A DNA stretch of 64,000 bases from positions 1 to 64,000 of the forward strand of contig NZ_VIAQ01000002.1 in assembly GCF_006546655.1 (NCBI RefSeq). The letters run 5' to 3'. Below, piece by piece: positions 42,533 to 51,517 of this stretch. How positions within the stretch are numbered: the first letter of the stretch is position 1; each line of letters starts with the position of its first letter. The stretch is from Methanolobus vulcani (GTDB lineage: Archaea; Halobacteriota; Methanosarcinia; Methanosarcinales; Methanosarcinaceae). The notes under the pieces are model-generated. The model searched no databases. It was not told the DNA's origin and was given only the letters and a program-made list of their open reading frames with translations. Made by a program: the position numbers and the translations under genes.

Positions 42533-43300
42533 ATGAAAAAATCAGATGCAAAAAGGGAACACATAGTCTGCAACATCCAAACAGATACCGAAGGCATTCT
42601 TATTGAAAGACCAAATCGTTTCCTGGCCATTGTCGAGATCGATGTGAACGGAAGCAAAAGTCAGGAAAAGGTACATGTCCACGACCCCGGCAGGCTCATA
42701 GACATACTGTATCCTGGAAACTGTGTGCTGCTTCGAAAAGCCAGCAATCCGAAAAGAAAAACAGGCTGGGATATGATAGCTGGAAGGATCGGAGAGGAAT
42801 GGATACTTATCAATTCGGCATTCCACAGGCAGATATCTCAGTGGATACTGGAAAACCGGATTATTGACAAATTTAGAAATATTGATAATATCATTCCTGA
42901 GCAGAGATTTGGTGACAGCAGGCTGGATTTTCTTCTGGAAGAAGACAGGAAAAAGACATGGGTTGAGGTTAAAGGCTGCACGCTGGCGGAGAATAATGTC
43001 GCTGTCTTTCCGGATGCTCCTACAACCCGTGGAAAACGTCATCTTGAGGAACTCATACGTGCTGTGGATGAAGGAAATGATGCAGCTATTATCATACTGG
43101 TATTCAGATCGGATGCAAAGTGTTTTGCTCCTAACCGGAAGATTGACATTGATTTTACAGAAACGATGATCAAAGCTGTAGAAAAAGGCGTAATGATCTT
43201 CCCATTGCAATTCATTTTTGAGAACAACAATATTTACTATCTATCACAAATTCCGCTTTGCCTGGAGAAAACAGGACTGATTGCAGGACTGGTTGAATGA
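42533..43300 (+). CDS. sfsA: SfsA family protein
   Basis: A 255-residue homologue of sugar fermentation stimulation protein A, a nuclease-like fold with a DNA-binding OB domain. Motifs are RPNRFLAIVEIDV, VHVHDPGRLIDILYPG, FGDSRLDFLLEE, KTWVEVKGCTL and FPDAPTTRGKRHLEEL. Its role in archaea is unknown. It overlaps the following symporter gene by 4 nt (ATGA), so they form one operon. No ribosome-binding site is visible for the ATG. Confidence 0.9.
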   Translation: MKKSDAKREHIVCNIQTDTEGILIERPNRFLAIVEIDVNGSKSQEKVHVHDPGRLIDILYPGNCVLLRKASNPKRKTGWDMIAGRIGEEWILINSAFHRQISQWILENRIIDKFRNIDNIIPEQRFGDSRLDFLLEEDRKKTWVEVKGCTLAENNVAVFPDAPTTRGKRHLEELIRAVDEGNDAAIIILVFRSDAKCFAPNRKIDIDFTETMIKAVEKGVMIFPLQFIFENNNIYYLSQIPLCLEKTGLIAGLVE

Positions 43301-44735: not shown

Positions 44736-46115
44736 TTAACTGGGATCTACCAGCCAGCAGTGACAATTTGCCTGGAATATATTCCTTCTTGTAAAATTAG
44801 CCGCAATGCAGCTCCCCCTGCAAACAGGAAGCCACTGGCACCTGCTACATTTACCTTTCATGTCCGAGGCTTTCAGGCTCCTGAAGTAATTCAGGAATCG
44901 TGAGTTATCCCATATCCACCGGAAAGACCTGTCTTTCACATTCTCAACATCTGCTCCTTCAAAATAGTTGCATGGAAGCACATCGCCCTTTGAAGTGACC
45001 GTACAGTATCCGATGGCGCCATCACACCCGATTCTTGTATCAGTATTTGCTTCAATCTCCTGTTCTGGAGTTGGTCGGAATGTACATTCAAATTCCATTG
45101 GTGCAATTTCAGGACCATCTGATTCTCTTTTACTGAGAAGGAATTCAGTCAGTTCTCGCATTCTTGCAGGTTTTACTTCCAGGTCAAAAGCACCTGTTCC
45201 ACGTCCTGAAGGAACGAAAGGCAATATTCTGAACGTCTGCACTCTCAGTTCTTTTCCCAGTTCATAAAGTTCAGGAATATTATCAATATTCATTGTGGTT
45301 ACTGCCGCCGCAAGTGTGACAGGAACACCGGCTTTAATCAGCAATTTAATTCCATTTACTGTCTTTTCCCATGAACCTGATAATTGGCGGAAATCATCAT
45401 GAATGGCAGAGACACTTGAATCAAGACTCACCTGTGCCCTTGCTCCAATATTCGCGAGCTTCTCAGCAGCAGTTTCATCTATCAGTGTTCCGTTGGTGGC
45501 TACCTGTATCATTATGTTTTTGGAAGCAGCATATTCAGCTATATCAAAAAAATCCTTTCTGATCATGGGTTCGCCGCCGCTTAGTATCAGTTGTGCAACT
45601 CCAAACTCTGCAAACTCATCGATAAGCCTGCAACAATCTTCAAAAGGTAGTTCATCGTTGCATTCCTCTCCGGCACTTACAACGCAATGTCTGCATCTGA
45701 GATTGCATTTGGATGTAAGATCCCAGAGCACACCGGCAGGAGCAGGTACATTCCAGTAGTTCATCCTGTCATTACGCCACCACAAAAGTCCGCGACCTGT
45801 TAGGTCATCCAGTATCGGTCTGCTTTTATCCATCACAGTGTCTCGGTCTGAATGAAAAGATGTACTCAATTGTGCGATAATCTCATCGAGTGTCCGGTAA
45901 CCATCACACATTTTCAGAAGCCAGTAGGCTGCTTCATTGAGTTCCTGAACTTCAGAGCTAAGCGGGTCTTCTGTAATCCATATATCATTTTCCTTACTTA
46001 TCCTGAAAGGAAAATAAGGGACAGCAGATTCTGCCGGAAGATTGTTGCTACAGTTAATTCCGGTATCTACATTACATGTATCTGCTGTCAATATGCCAGA
46101 CTGCTTTTCTATCAC
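44736..46115 (-). CDS. Radical SAM/SPASM peptide maturase with N-terminal PqqD-like domain
   Basis: A 459-residue enzyme. Residues ~38-115 form a PqqD-like winged helix (SEVQELNEAAYWLLKMCDGY, RTLDEIIAQLSTSF), the usual peptide-recognition element. The radical SAM core starts at 130 with CNLRCRHC (Cys 137, 141, 144) and LSGGEPMIRKDF. The C-terminal SPASM domain has Cys in GCDGAIGYC and VLPCNYFEG, then CSRCQWLPVCRGSC, enough for two auxiliary Fe-S clusters. It likely cross-links a peptide. Its GTG start overlaps the M4 peptidase stop (GTGA). Similar architecture occurs in heme-synthesis AhbC/NirJ enzymes, but the peptide-recognition domain and neighbours favour peptide modification. Confidence 0.85.
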   Translation of the reverse strand: MIEKQSGILTADTCNVDTGINCSNNLPAESAVPYFPFRISKENDIWITEDPLSSEVQELNEAAYWLLKMCDGYRTLDEIIAQLSTSFHSDRDTVMDKSRPILDDLTGRGLLWWRNDRMNYWNVPAPAGVLWDLTSKCNLRCRHCVVSAGEECNDELPFEDCCRLIDEFAEFGVAQLILSGGEPMIRKDFFDIAEYAASKNIMIQVATNGTLIDETAAEKLANIGARAQVSLDSSVSAIHDDFRQLSGSWEKTVNGIKLLIKAGVPVTLAAAVTTMNIDNIPELYELGKELRVQTFRILPFVPSGRGTGAFDLEVKPARMRELTEFLLSKRESDGPEIAPMEFECTFRPTPEQEIEANTDTRIGCDGAIGYCTVTSKGDVLPCNYFEGADVENVKDRSFRWIWDNSRFLNYFRSLKASDMKGKCSRCQWLPVCRGSCIAANFTRRNIFQANCHCWLVDPS

Positions 46116-48223
46116 TTGACTTCCCCGAGCATCACAAGTGTCTTCTTTCTCCAGTCATGTATCCTGGTTTCTGAGATTCCAAGGGTCTTTGAAAGCTCTG
46201 TTATCTTCTTTGCATCCTCTGTTGCTTTCAGGAAGTCTCCGAGTGTTGAAATTGATCTTCCCTTAAACAGGGTTGCAGTTTCCGGTCCGATGCCTACTAT
46301 GTCTATAATGTCAGTTTTCAGTGTAATTACCGGATTCTTGACACGTATGTATGGATCATAAGGCAATGGGTCCGGTCCTGGCAGACACGAAAGTCCCGGA
46401 GATGGTGGACAGGCTATGTATGGTGAAGGTGGACAAACTATCATTGGTGATGGAGGGCATACAAAGTCCGGTGCAGGCGGGCAGATGTAAGGTGCTGGTG
46501 GGCATACAAAGCCTGGTGCAGGTGGACATAGCACGTGTGGTGATGGTGGACAGATCATTGGTGCTATCCAGCATGTGAACGGGCATGTAACGGCTGTACC
46601 GATTCCCACAGCAGCAAATGCATTTATTATGCTTGCTCTCCAGCGAGAGTAATGCGGATTGGTCGAGTAGAGATCATCAAGTGAATCCAGTACCGCATCT
46701 CTCATGTCGCTGAAATCTGAACTTGAGACCAGATGTGTTGTCAGTGCCTGGTAATAGAGAAGTCCAAGTACATCGCGGCCAAGTCCTTCACATATCCTGA
46801 TCCCTCTGTGTGTACCACCGGTTGCTATCAGGTAAGCGGCTTTATTCATGATTCCACTGTTGATGTGGACTCCGCCGTTGTCTGAATAACCGGTGTATTG
46901 GTCAGTTGTGTGGTCTGGCTGGTGACCTGCTATGCAACTGTCAATTGGGTTTGCAGGGTCGTATTGTCCACCGTTGGTCGGGTCTTCCATATTACGTAGA
47001 GCTGGTGCTGTTGTGGGCAGCCAGGGTTCTTCGCCAATGAGCCAGTTTCCGGATATCAAAGCACCGAAAACATCTGACATGGATTCGTTAAGTGCACCTG
47101 ATTCGTTGCTATAGACAAGTCCGGCAGTATATTCGGTAACTGCATGTGTCCATTCGTGTGCGATTATATCCAGTGCACAGAGTGAATTGTATCTTGATCC
47201 GTCACCGTTTCCTATTTTGACATAACTTCCGTTCCATGTAGCATTATTCCAGCCGCTTCCGCAGTTGGCATAAATATGCATATCGGCTCCGGCATCATCG
47301 TAACTGTCACGTCCATGGACTGTGAAGTAGTAGTCGTATACCATTCTTGTATAGAGATGACAATCAACGTCAGGCCCCTGTCCGGAAGCAGACCAGTTAT
47401 TATTATTGTCTTCCGAAACAGGAGCAGGAGGATAGCTGCCGTTGGCATCATGGGTGATTACTCTTGCAGAACTAGGTACCCATTGGTCTTCAAGCAGGTA
47501 TTTGGCTGTGCCGTGATCGTGTAGTGTGTTTATTGTGACGGAACCTGCATACGTTCCAATTCCTGAACCTGTGGTCCTTGTATGTCCCTGCTCATTGTTA
47601 TATTTCCAGACAACTTTTCCGGTAAGTGCATCTACAAAATACTCCCATTTGGCAGGTGTGTCTTCTCCGGCAAGGTCCTTATCAATTCCATTAACTGAAA
47701 CATGCCACACTAGATGTGGTTCTTTCACAAACTGTGACAGGATCATAAGAGTGGGTTCAGCATGCAGTTTTCCTTTGGAATTGTTCTTATCATCTTTAAG
47801 AACGGTTTTCAATGCTTCTTCTCCTGTGATCTTTGCCTTGTCCGGCAGATCAATTTCAGGAGTCAGCTTTCCAGTTGTTCCTTTTATGTTGTCCTCTGCA
47901 TCAATATGGACTATTATTTCGCTACCAAAAACAGGCAAATCCTTGTACACCTGCTGCATGCGCACATGTCTGGAACCGATACGATCAGTATCTATCCTTT
48001 TTACAAGCATTTCTTTGTTGACAGAATTTAGCAGATAAAGGTCTTTATTGACTTCCATAAACTCTATGGCAGCTCTTCCGGGATCCTTTTGCTCAGATTT
48101 TGCAAGCAAACCTTTGAGTCTAAGTGGGATACCAGTACGTTCATCCCATTTGACATCTACATTAACATCAACAGTTCTTAGCTTATCGAGTATATCTTTT
48201 TGTTTTCTGACAGGTTCATACAT
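46112..48223 (-). CDS. M4 (thermolysin-type) metallopeptidase with Cys-Pro-Pro repeats and C-terminal DUF4332
   Basis: A 703-residue peptidase. The propeptide has FTP-like (about 45-95) and PepSY-like (125-210) parts. The catalytic domain has HEWTH (356-360), the third ligand Glu380 and the second histidine in DNGGVHINSGIMNKAAYL. Residues 558-609 hold seven CPP(S/A)P repeats of about 8 residues. The last ~65 residues are a DUF4332 helix-hairpin-helix (IDIVGIGPETATLFKGRSI). There is no signal peptide, and a TAG just upstream rules out an N-terminal extension, unusual for M4. GGGGAG precedes the ATG. It is probably co-transcribed with the small peptide upstream and the radical SAM gene downstream. 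Confidence 0.85.
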   Translation of the reverse strand: MYEPVRKQKDILDKLRTVDVNVDVKWDERTGIPLRLKGLLAKSEQKDPGRAAIEFMEVNKDLYLLNSVNKEMLVKRIDTDRIGSRHVRMQQVYKDLPVFGSEIIVHIDAEDNIKGTTGKLTPEIDLPDKAKITGEEALKTVLKDDKNNSKGKLHAEPTLMILSQFVKEPHLVWHVSVNGIDKDLAGEDTPAKWEYFVDALTGKVVWKYNNEQGHTRTTGSGIGTYAGSVTINTLHDHGTAKYLLEDQWVPSSARVITHDANGSYPPAPVSEDNNNNWSASGQGPDVDCHLYTRMVYDYYFTVHGRDSYDDAGADMHIYANCGSGWNNATWNGSYVKIGNGDGSRYNSLCALDIIAHEWTHAVTEYTAGLVYSNESGALNESMSDVFGALISGNWLIGEEPWLPTTAPALRNMEDPTNGGQYDPANPIDSCIAGHQPDHTTDQYTGYSDNGGVHINSGIMNKAAYLIATGGTHRGIRICEGLGRDVLGLLYYQALTTHLVSSSDFSDMRDAVLDSLDDLYSTNPHYSRWRASIINAFAAVGIGTAVTCPFTCWIAPMICPPSPHVLCPPAPGFVCPPAPYICPPAPDFVCPPSPMIVCPPSPYIACPPSPGLSCLPGPDPLPYDPYIRVKNPVITLKTDIIDIVGIGPETATLFKGRSISTLGDFLKATEDAKKITELSKTLGISETRIHDWRKKTLVMLGEVK
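46397..46552 (-). repeat. Array of seven Cys-Pro-Pro octapeptide repeats in the M4 peptidase
   Basis: Seven units of CPP(S/A)P plus 2-3 residues (codons 558-609), followed by a degenerate CLPGP unit. It forms a proline-rich linker with one thiol every eight residues between the catalytic domain and DUF4332. Confidence 0.9.
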
Positions 48224-48273
48224 TCCCTATCTCCCCTTGATGGTTTTCACTATACTGAATTGAACATTAGGTC

Positions 48274-48355
48274 AGAGCAAATGAAAAGATCGCAGACCTC
48301 CCTTGGGCACCCCTGCCCGGCCAGATATAGGACCTTCCCTATTTCTTATTGCTCT
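48274..48355 (-). ncRNA. Candidate structured RNA in the leader of the M4 gene
   Basis: On the minus strand the element closes with AGAGCAA/TTGCTCT (48349-48355 with 48274-48280). It contains three internal helices: TAGG/CCTA, GGCC/GGTC (using a G-U pair that exists only on the minus strand), and GGGCA/TGCCC with a 4-nt loop. It lies 51 nt before the M4 ATG, after the small-peptide gene. It could be a leader switch, a processing site or an attenuator. No known class is recognised. Confidence 0.4.
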
Positions 48356-48441
48356 AATTATAATTTCAAACTAATAATCTATAAAGTTTGCTCTGAAATT
48401 CAGTGCAATATATTAAAATAAGTAAAAATAAGTAAAATCAA

Positions 48442-48636
48442 TTAATCTTTCTTCTCAGATTTTTTCTTCTTTTCTTCAATGGTAGTATTATCACACCACG
48501 CATCAACTTCAAGGTCGGCTGCACTTTTTTTATCGTCATCGGAGTCCGGTACAGTACACCATGTATCGATCTGTTCATCAAAACCTGGCATTTCAATATC
48601 TTCAACTTCTTTCTTTTTGGCATTCTTTTTGTCCAT
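48442..48636 (-). CDS. Small acidic/basic peptide with two (I/V)D(T/A)WC motifs; candidate RiPP precursor
   Basis: A 64-residue peptide. The two halves repeat a motif: IDTWCTVPDSDDD (Cys27) and VDAWCDNTTIEE (Cys48), between a basic N-terminus (MDKKNAKKKEVED) and a lysine-rich C-terminus. The only two Cys and two Trp are in the motifs. GGAG lies 8 nt before the ATG. Downstream on the same strand come the structured leader, an M4 peptidase and a radical SAM/SPASM enzyme, so it is a good candidate substrate of that enzyme. The CTVPD spacing (C-x3-D) recalls ranthipeptide cores. Confidence 0.6.
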   Translation of the reverse strand: MDKKNAKKKEVEDIEMPGFDEQIDTWCTVPDSDDDKKSAADLEVDAWCDNTTIEEKKKKSEKKD

Positions 48637-48783: not shown

Positions 48784-50055
48784 TTACAAATAACTACGAA
48801 AAATATGTAGTTTTATTTGTAAATTACCGAGGAATTCTCGATAGCCTGTCCAAATGGCATTCTGTGATAGGTAACGTGTCATGATATTGATAGAACTATT
48901 TCTATCTCTATCGATTTTATTACCACAATCACATATCATATCACGTTGACTGAGTGGCATTTCATGTATTTTTCCACAAGAACAACATGCCTTTGATGTA
49001 TAACTTTCGTCAACTTTTACTACTTTCTTACCTGCTAATTCGGCTTTATAGGTGAGTATATTGACAAATTGGGCTAAATAACCGTTATTTTGAGTGGAAC
49101 GACTAAGAGCTATTTCTTTGAAATCTTTTACTTTTTTAGTTGTTCCATCGGCTTTAGTAATTGTTTTGACTTTGGGTTTCTTAGCCATTTTTTTAACGTT
49201 GAGGTCGCCTATGATAATTGTATTGGCTCTAGTGTTTTCAACCATCTTTTTAGATAATTTATGTTGAAAATCCTTTATTTGATTGTGTCTTTTCTTTTCC
49301 ATTCTTCGTTTAGAAGCGTGTAATCTCTTCCACCTTCGACTACCTTTTTTACAACGGTCTAGTCTGGAATGTATTTTATCTATTTTAGAATTCCAATATT
49401 TATCAGGACGAGGATTCACAGCTTCAAAAAATTTGCAGTCGGTATTTATCGCTGTTACAGTTTTCGAAATTCCTAAATCAATCGCCTGATACTTATTATT
49501 GTCATAATATTTTTTTGTGGACTCTATTTCGAAAGAAACAGAAATATAAAAATCGCCCATTGCTTTATAGGGATTATCATTGAATATTTCGAACTGCTTG
49601 ATTTTCATTTCCTGTAAACTCTCTTCTATTTCAAAAGATAATTCCACATCATTACATTTATGTGAAAATGTAACTACATTATCGGAAATTTTGAAACCAC
49701 TTTGATTATAAGGTATAGTGAAAAAATACTTTTTACCTCTAAAATTTGGAGGTCTCGCATCTTTATCGCCATTTTTCCATAATGCGAAGAACGATTTATA
49801 ACCACCATCTAACTTTTTAAGAACACCTTGTAGAGTCTTACTATATGGTTTTTTCAAATCTGGATTTATCTCTTTCAGTTCCGGTAAATCATTTTGCTGT
49901 TTATTATAAGTTATAGAAATACTTGATTTCTCCCACGACTCTTTACGTTCAGCTAGAGCGTGATTATAGAGAAATCTACATTGCTCAGAAATATACCAAA
50001 GAGTATCGGTTTGTTCTTCGGTTGGATGTATTTTGTATTTCTTTGTAAGCAACAT
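48784..50055 (-). CDS. tnpB: TnpB-family RNA-guided nuclease-like protein (OrfB)
   Basis: A 423-residue IS605 OrfB. It has an N-terminal HTH-like part (KYKIHPTEEQTDTLWYI), RuvC-I Asp193 in AIDLGISK, a zinc finger with CCSCG and CDCG, and RuvC-III Asp in KIDRDRNSSINI. At the RuvC-II position the motif reads IIIGDLNVKKM, with Gly where the catalytic Glu (E-D/N-L) is expected, so cleavage activity may be impaired. It is translated after tnpA with a one-base overlap. Confidence 0.88.
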   Translation of the reverse strand: MLLTKKYKIHPTEEQTDTLWYISEQCRFLYNHALAERKESWEKSSISITYNKQQNDLPELKEINPDLKKPYSKTLQGVLKKLDGGYKSFFALWKNGDKDARPPNFRGKKYFFTIPYNQSGFKISDNVVTFSHKCNDVELSFEIEESLQEMKIKQFEIFNDNPYKAMGDFYISVSFEIESTKKYYDNNKYQAIDLGISKTVTAINTDCKFFEAVNPRPDKYWNSKIDKIHSRLDRCKKGSRRWKRLHASKRRMEKKRHNQIKDFQHKLSKKMVENTRANTIIIGDLNVKKMAKKPKVKTITKADGTTKKVKDFKEIALSRSTQNNGYLAQFVNILTYKAELAGKKVVKVDESYTSKACCSCGKIHEMPLSQRDMICDCGNKIDRDRNSSINIMTRYLSQNAIWTGYREFLGNLQIKLHIFRSYL

Positions 50056-50474
50056 TATTTTTTGCCCTGATTATCTACATATTTTTTTAGAACATCTAGT
50101 GTAACCTGTCCGGTAGTTGCTAAAAAATAAGAACGAGACCAAAACGCATCTTTCCACAACAAATCTTTTACTTCTGGAAATTGTCTGCGAATTTCTCTTG
50201 AAGAAATGGTTTTTATGGTGTTGATATACTTAGGTATATCCAATGTTGGTTTTGCTTTGAAAATCATGTGAAAGTGGTCTTTATCACATTCTATATTCAA
50301 TATTTCAACATCGAAATTTTCACTAATGTTATGTGCAGTCTGCTTCAATAAATCGATGATGAGCGGATTTATTAAGGCGTGTCTTCTGTATTTTATACAT
50401 TGTACGAAATGGTACTGTAATGAAAATACAGAATGACTTCCTTTATCAAGATTATACTGCATAGTTATATGCAA
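50055..50474 (-). CDS. tnpA: IS200/IS605 Y1 transposase (TnpA)
   Basis: A 139-residue single-strand transposase. It has the HUH motif in DKDHFHMIF (His67, His69) and the nucleophilic Tyr132 in LKKYVDNQ. The length is close to the usual 140-150 residues, and no frameshift is seen, so it may be active. It catalyses single-strand excision and insertion of the element. Confidence 0.92.
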   Translation of the reverse strand: MHITMQYNLDKGSHSVFSLQYHFVQCIKYRRHALINPLIIDLLKQTAHNISENFDVEILNIECDKDHFHMIFKAKPTLDIPKYINTIKTISSREIRRQFPEVKDLLWKDAFWSRSYFLATTGQVTLDVLKKYVDNQGKK

Positions 50475-50630: not shown

Positions 50631-51371
50631 TTACAGTATCGGACTTATCGTCCTTAGTTCCACAATCTGTCCCCACATGTGGAAACTCATCATATCATCA
50701 CGTGGATAGGCTGTGAATCTTACTTCCGTTCCATTAATGCTGAAATCTTCTGGCAGGTTAATCGGATCATATTTTGCATCGTCAGTTCCAATTATTCCAT
50801 AAAAGCCGCCTTCAAGGTCGTTGTATATCACAGTTCCGGTATCAGATATGAGTTCACTCTCAGGAATTACATTAATCGTCAGTTCATAGCTGTCTTCGGT
50901 TCCTGTTATCTCTTCCCATGGACGCACGTAGATTGCAGACAAACTCTGCTCGCCTGTGTCAGTGACTTGAAAAATCCACATGTGAGAACCGCCTGCACCA
51001 ACAAGGCTTACATTAGTACTCGCTTCAAGGAACTCATCTTCTTCAAGTTTAAGTCCTTCACTGTATGTTATATTCCATGAATATCCGGTTGTGGGATTTT
51101 CTTCAAGTTCAACAATAATGAAATCTCCTACAATAGCATAAACGGTACTCTGGCTGTCGTTCTCTGAAAAGCTACGACTAACCGCTGTCATTGTGCCTAT
51201 GGCAACGTCGGAACTGTCTGTGGTTCCTGTCTGTTCTTCTACATCTGATGTTGCAGTGCCATTGTCATCAATGCTGGTGTTATTGCCTGTATCATCACTG
51301 TCTGTTACACAGCCGGAAGCCATGCATACAAGAAAAATAACTGCTGCAACTGTAAGTAATCTGATGTTCAT
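50631..51371 (-). CDS. Lipoprotein with chagasin-type (I42) cysteine-peptidase inhibitor domain
   Basis: A 246-residue exported protein. It has a signal peptide with a lipobox-like CMASGCV, then an acidic Thr/Ser linker. Residues ~75-175 form an I42 inhibitor domain with all three loops: NPTTGYSW, GAGGSHMW and RPWE. The C-terminal ~70 residues are unassigned. I42 proteins block C1-family cysteine peptidases, none of which is in this window. The start with GGGAG 12 nt upstream (51371) is favoured over 51383, where the site abuts the start codon. Confidence 0.82.
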   Translation of the reverse strand: MNIRLLTVAAVIFLVCMASGCVTDSDDTGNNTSIDDNGTATSDVEEQTGTTDSSDVAIGTMTAVSRSFSENDSQSTVYAIVGDFIIVELEENPTTGYSWNITYSEGLKLEEDEFLEASTNVSLVGAGGSHMWIFQVTDTGEQSLSAIYVRPWEEITGTEDSYELTINVIPESELISDTGTVIYNDLEGGFYGIIGTDDAKYDPINLPEDFSINGTEVRFTAYPRDDMMSFHMWGQIVELRTISPIL

Positions 51372-51517
51372 CTCAATGTTCATCTCCCTGTGTTATTAGT
51401 TACAGGATTGTTTTTTTGATATATACAGGTTTATTTAACTGCGATTAAGCTTGAAGCTATGCATTACGGCAGGATTTCTGATTTCAATAAACCACTTTTC
51501 AGCAGTCGTACCATAGT

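Follow-up and report, generated by a model that had tools for sequence, protein, structure and literature searches.

Which protein does a radical SAM/SPASM enzyme modify when it is encoded behind both a small cysteine-containing peptide and a full-size peptidase with a cysteine-rich tail? A locus of this kind lies on the minus strand of a 64,000-nucleotide stretch of the archaeon Methanolobus vulcani (contig NZ_VIAQ01000002.1, positions 1 to 64,000; this whole stretch is the window) and comprises, in gene order, a 64-residue peptide with two WC motifs, a 703-residue M4 peptidase and a 459-residue enzyme that joins PqqD, radical SAM and SPASM domains. An earlier interpretation made from the letters alone, the sequence-only reading, had described this order on one strand, which gene coordinates and Pfam domains bear out, and had taken the small peptide for the substrate. 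Comparison with related genomes points elsewhere. The unit would consist of two genes, an array-bearing protein and the PqqD-radical SAM-SPASM enzyme immediately behind it, and the probability that the enzyme staples each array cysteine, through a thioether, to the small residue at i+3 is put at roughly 0.6.

The likely target of the enzyme is not the small peptide but the repeat array in the tail of the peptidase, which reads CPFTCWIAP-MI-CPPSP-HVL-CPPAP-GFV-CPPAP-YI-CPPAP-DFV-CPPSP-MIV-CPPSP-YIA-CPPSP-GLS-CLPGP and has 9-11 units among 14 genomes. A six-frame scan of the window finds such an array in the M4 peptidase only. Among 27 Methanolobus genomes, an orthologue of the enzyme occurs in 14 and the peptidase (at least 79% identity) in exactly the same 14, while the other 13 have neither. 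At the DNA level, a pattern for two successive CPP units matches five to seven times in each of exactly these 14 genomes and not once in the remaining 13; stray matches in six other genomes fall in no long open frame, and the reversed pattern, used as a control, gives 0 matches in all 238 genomes. The 4-nt overlap of the enzyme start with the peptidase stop, noticed from the sequence at the outset, is kept in 13 of 13 cassettes measured. The sequence-only reading had remarked in passing on a modified CPP array that the peptidase might bear; this is the part of it favoured by the evidence, and the array is what recurs with the enzyme.

The same type of repeat tail is found on unrelated proteins, with close relatives of the enzyme encoded behind them, which makes the repeats themselves the likely target. 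Another Methanosarcinaceae genus has, in two genomes, an enzyme of 40% identity encoded behind an S8 subtilase that lacks a signal peptide and whose tail carries CLRGP repeats in genome G099 and CPPAP/CPPGP repeats in genome G084. Four genomes of another family encode an enzyme of 34-36% identity inside a contractile-injection locus (eCIS_core, Baseplate_J, Tail_P2_I); where the contig extends far enough, it follows directly upon a CIS13-family protein (NF053767, 1.2e-25) that ends in CPAGQP, CLAGKP or CTAGTP repeats. On a fourth scaffold, present in G003, G116 and G128, an enzyme of the same architecture and about 28% identity stands behind an unclassified protein of 318-350 residues with the C-terminal repeats CRTGLP, CRSGLP and CAAGP. 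At the loci measured, the array gene is always upstream on the same strand, with a gap of -4 to 56 nt to the enzyme. Common to the four unrelated proteins is the motif C-x-x-(A/G/S)-(x)-P, its proline mostly at C+4 or C+5. Position C+3 is A, G or S after 91, 81, 98 and 81% of the array cysteines of the four scaffolds, against a regional background of 17-27%, and when one representative array of each scaffold was shuffled, 0, 0, 0 and 16 of 20000 trials came up to the value observed. The comparative case for the array as substrate is a strong one.

Several features of these loci deserve mention in their own right. The archaeal contractile-injection loci L125-L128 encode eCIS_core proteins, an M36/FTP-type metallopeptidase and a CIS13 protein with internal as well as C-terminal CxAGxP repeats, strongly variable in number. 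An eCIS_core search of the 27 Methanolobus genomes found none, but its control was silent too. The unclassified array protein (L129 8279-9253, L130 8109-9065, L042 51-1103) has conserved YDHG and VSC motifs and, by eye, an unproven caspase-like (clan CD) look; searches with it in Pfam, NCBIfam and PDB gave no match. At L131 (6606-8335), a radical SAM enzyme of the same lineage has no recognisable array neighbour, and a small upstream open reading frame (CVVGGP...CGTC) is interrupted by an assembly gap.

Could the arrays instead be metal- or disulfide-binding stalks, with the enzyme modifying something else and the pairing reflecting shared transfer of a module? Cysteine-rich repeats can bind metals, the hosts are anaerobes, and array and enzyme clearly travel together. 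The immediate same-strand pairing on four unrelated proteins speaks against this, as do homologues that lack the array where the enzyme is absent: S8 paralogues (~40% identity) in G092 and G096, CIS13 homologues in G162, G169, G179 and G184, and the nearest M4 peptidases in G219 and G237 all carry none, and their genomes are not among the enzyme-bearing ones. Such a stalk reading is very doubtful. Across 159 loci outside the enzyme family (1.13 Mb, 85 of the loci with other radical SAM open reading frames), a six-frame scan likewise found no array at a threshold of at least four units per 100 residues. No more full-length enzyme relatives above threshold came from surveys of the phylum (394 genomes) and of one bacterial phylum (397 genomes); the 397 bacterial genomes, PLSDB plasmids and IMG/VR yielded distant enzymes only, none of which, in the genome survey, matched across the PqqD region.

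The substrate first proposed was the small peptide, whose Cys27 and Cys48 the enzyme would modify before the peptidase processes the product. Its 64-residue frame is indeed a real conserved gene with both WC motifs invariant, it stands directly upstream in most enzyme-positive genomes, and PqqD-SPASM enzymes act on short peptides as a rule. However, a profile search finds the peptide in 42 of 112 Methanosarcinaceae genomes, in all 27 Methanolobus and, with decreasing scores, in three further genera, and 13 of its Methanolobus hosts, as well as its hosts in three other genera, have neither enzyme orthologue nor peptidase; in one such genome without the enzyme (G051) it scores 117.5 bits, as high as peptides from enzyme-bearing genomes. 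The order chagasin-peptide-SfsA is intact without the cassette at L132, L139 and L140, with the same neighbours as in the window, so that the peptide's place beside the cassette is most simply inherited and gives no evidence of partnership. A promoter-like conserved element separates it from the peptidase-enzyme pair, and the fit of CTVPD to the C-x3-D of ranthipeptides falls away, since C+4 in the peptide may be D, E or T. Genomes that keep peptidase and enzyme and lack the peptide, named beforehand as telling against a partnership, do not occur in Methanolobus, where the peptide is never missing; the enzyme relatives in G003, G084 and G099, on the other hand, work in genomes with no match to the peptide family. 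The two-WC peptide is probably wrong as a substrate, and the scheme of modification and processing built on it is highly improbable. Neither partner resembles a ranthipeptide-type C-x3-D/E or SCIFF-type precursor, the M4 array having P at C+4, and a short leader-core precursor of the sactipeptide kind is not found, the best partner being a 700-residue peptidase and the sole nearby short peptide not being enzyme-specific. The two-WC peptide remains a conserved, unexplained small Methanosarcinaceae protein, which lies near pyruvate kinase in two other genera (L132 and L135-L140 among the loci).

The spacer between peptide and peptidase genes (48224-48394) holds a BRE/TATA-like element (B recognition element), then, ahead of the peptidase gene, a long leader in which a GCCGGGCAGGGGTGCC hairpin is conserved. 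The invariant element AGAGNAAACTTTATA is consistent with a separate promoter for peptidase and enzyme. The structured spacer of the sequence-only reading holds in so far as RNA hairpins are predicted; covariation is weak and no Rfam match was obtained. A riboswitch was considered for this spacer and rejected on these two grounds and because its conserved part is the promoter-like element.

What kind of enzyme accompanies the arrays? It possesses the CxxxCxxC motif and auxiliary-cluster cysteines of the radical SAM/SPASM member of a sactipeptide system, and a PqqD-like recognition domain of the RRE (recognition element) type is fused to it; this domain, assigned early on to its N-terminal part, scores above the Pfam cut-off. 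CxxxCxxC and the seven SPASM cysteines, sufficient for two predicted auxiliary clusters, are invariant across 16 relatives, the most distant included, and the PqqD domain is detected in 13 of the 16 at E<=0.1. The closest named relatives, from Methanolobus vulcani and M. bombayensis, share 88-89% identity in the enzyme; these two species and M. profundi have the peptidase-enzyme cassette. In profile comparison with solved structures, SkfB, PqqE and CteB come first, two of them enzymes that make cysteine thioethers, and structures of anaerobic sulfatase-maturating enzymes (anSME) are also among the matches. The enzyme falls outside the PapB family (NF047865, 81 bits against a cut-off of 340) and scores 112 bits with the ACGX-system model TIGR04340, the cut-off of which is 400. 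Its best NCBIfam hits are AhbD and NirJ2, as would suit a heme-biosynthesis protein with incidental neighbours, yet these hits reach 216 and 205 bits against cut-offs of 500, the PqqD domain is fused to it, and the same genome, like most relatives' genomes, encodes a separate AhbD-like gene outside the enzyme's group. In the tree, the AhbD-like genes of the same genomes form their own well-supported clade, apart from the array-linked enzymes. By its scores the enzyme lies outside the AhbD and NirJ heme enzymes, and by the tree outside the AhbD-like genes; a grouping with heme enzymes (AhbC/NirJ) was what the sequence-only reading had set up as a check on itself. Heme enzyme identity was rejected on this basis and is barely conceivable. 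The evidence supports a peptide- or protein-modifying PqqD-radical SAM-SPASM protein, not a heme enzyme, and one that probably cross-links cysteines.

Its partner has the catalytic domains and zinc ligands of an M4 peptidase, with the active-site motifs HEWTH, GALNE and GGVH, of which HEWTH and GALNE are invariant among relatives. The N-terminus is not hydrophobic and has no signal-peptide-like start, so that the description of an M4 peptidase lacking a signal peptide, together with the Pfam domains, is borne out. The PqqD-type domain would dock this peptidase, or the corresponding array-bearing protein elsewhere, and the enzyme would then work along the C-terminal array C-x-x-(A/G/S)-(x)-P. 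In each unit, it would abstract the alpha-hydrogen of the small residue at i+3 and join the cysteine sulfur to that alpha carbon, closing a four-residue thioether ring. This would leave the catalytic domain joined to the C-terminal tail by a stiff, stapled stalk of Cys and Pro; as a guess, the role of this stalk may be to hold the protein, to stabilise or anchor it, or to lend it resistance to the peptidase's own activity.

Different chemistry on the same array is a rather unlikely, though less remote, possibility: the cysteine might be oxidised, as in the anaerobic maturation of sulfatases, a residue might be epimerised, or the thioether might go to a non-alpha carbon or to a different position. 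Several reactions are catalysed by SPASM enzymes that hold two auxiliary clusters, anSME structures appear among the profile hits, and the CPPSP units of the M4 array partly resemble C-x-P/A-x-R, the sulfatase motif. However, no Arg stands at C+4, and only the small residue at C+3 keeps a fixed distance from the cysteine on each of the four scaffolds. That Gly and Ala are frequent at C+3 speaks against a beta or gamma linkage, and Gly also against epimerisation at this residue.

The proposed alpha-thioether has a chemical precedent for its i+3 rings in streptosactin, the unnested S-C-alpha bonds of which (Cys25-Ser28, Cys31-Gly34) are made by a radical SAM/SPASM enzyme, and with QhpD there is a precedent in which the substrate is a protein subunit (PMC8172795). 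Streptosactin and GggB share with the present pair unnested C-x-x-S and C-x-x-G units linked i to i+3 by a SPASM sactisynthase, but involve a short peptide with two rings, whereas here at least nine units lie in the tail of a large archaeal protein and the enzyme has a fused PqqD domain. QhpD also is a radical SAM/SPASM enzyme that cross-links cysteines within a protein subunit (QhpC of quinohemoprotein amine dehydrogenase), and a subtilisin-like protease is encoded in its operon too; its linkages, however, go to Asp/Glu methylene carbons without a tandem array, and its protease is a separate maturation factor, whereas here the protease itself bears the array. The ranthipeptide systems (PapB/freyrasin, CteB/thermocellin) likewise use radical SAM-SPASM enzymes on repeated cysteine units, but with a Cys-Asp or Cys-Thr beta/gamma linkage, while the units here are C-x-x-(A/G/S), with no beta-carbon when the residue is Gly. 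The ACGX-system proteins (TIGR04340) have a family name that points to repeated Cys/Gly units in the target; no literature on that system was found. Protealysin-like peptidases are an M4 subgroup in bacteria and certain archaea, and the abstract that describes them mentions neither a CPP array nor a radical SAM partner (PMC6778150). In the open-access literature, most subscription papers being outside this scope, no description was found of such a pair, nor of radical SAM enzymes in contractile-injection loci.

Some observations weigh against stapling of the arrays by a dedicated enzyme lineage. The PqqD domain is below cut-off or undetected in some relatives, and in overall sequence the enzyme resembles heme-synthesis enzymes most, although its scores with them stay far below cut-off. 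AlphaFold models have low confidence (mean pLDDT, the predicted local distance difference test, 52 for the enzyme and 37 for the peptidase) and confirm neither docking nor the fold of the recognition domain. One enzyme relative, in G202, has no recognisable adjacent array, with a contig gap at that place. A single origin of the enzyme-array pairing is likely; the tree supports each of the four array-linked groups, apart from the AhbD-like genes, but its backbone does not resolve how they join.

The coordinates of the locus are collected in Table 1. In the flanks, SfsA is encoded at 42533-43300 and a chagasin-family (I42) peptidase inhibitor, lipoprotein-like, at 50631-51383, upstream of the peptide. 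The latter may or may not be functionally paired with the peptidase cassette, and also occurs without it. An IS200/IS605 element (TnpA Y1 transposase and TnpB with a Cas12f1-like domain) is inserted between inhibitor and peptide at 48784-50474.

Table 1. Features of the peptidase-enzyme locus and its neighbouring peptide, in window coordinates.
Feature	Position	Strand	Basis or remark
Two-WC peptide, 64 aa (IDTWC, VDAWC)	48442..48636	-	conserved neighbour, probably not part of the system
Invariant BRE/TATA-like element AGAGNAAACTTTATA	48371..48394	-	nine intergenic regions aligned, nine species; promoter role inferred
M4 (thermolysin-family) peptidase, 703 aa	46112..48223	-	Pfam Peptidase_M4 7e-29, M4_C 5.5e-39, FTP, PepSY
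C-terminal array, CPFTCWIAP then CPP(S/A)P units and CLPGP, 9 units	46373..46585	-	proposed modification site
Helix-hairpin-helix-like peptidase tail after the array	46151..46312	-	HHH_5 E=0.009, DUF4332 E=0.08, both below Pfam cut-off
PqqD-radical SAM-SPASM enzyme, 459 aa, GTG start	44736..46115	-	Pfam
PqqD domain	about 45783-45959	-	PF05402 36.4 bits, cut-off 23.4
Radical SAM core, C137xxxC141xxC144	about 45258-45719	-	Pfam
SPASM, Cys 364, 382, 423, 426, 432, 436, 453	about 44757-45026	-	Pfam and alignment

Taken together, the chemistry is of a known kind; what appears to be new is the architecture of the substrate, its exchange between scaffolds that are unrelated, and its setting in archaea. 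The balance tips slightly towards a general archaeal system of protein maturation, in which a PqqD-radical SAM-SPASM lineage staples tandem C-x-x-(A/G/S) arrays in the tails of full-size proteins and the module has moved between unrelated scaffolds. The finding corrects the view of the small peptide next door as the substrate, an obvious assignment but probably a wrong one, and offers instead a substrate open to direct test: the peptidase can be purified, and its tail is expected to lose 2 Da per unit. Protein engineering would gain a portable, tag-like module together with a rule for its recognition (C-x-x-small-Pro). Should the reading be true, thioether stapling by radical SAM enzymes would extend beyond small secreted peptides and take in repeated stalks, carried by functional proteases and by an injection-system component, in methanogens and their relatives.

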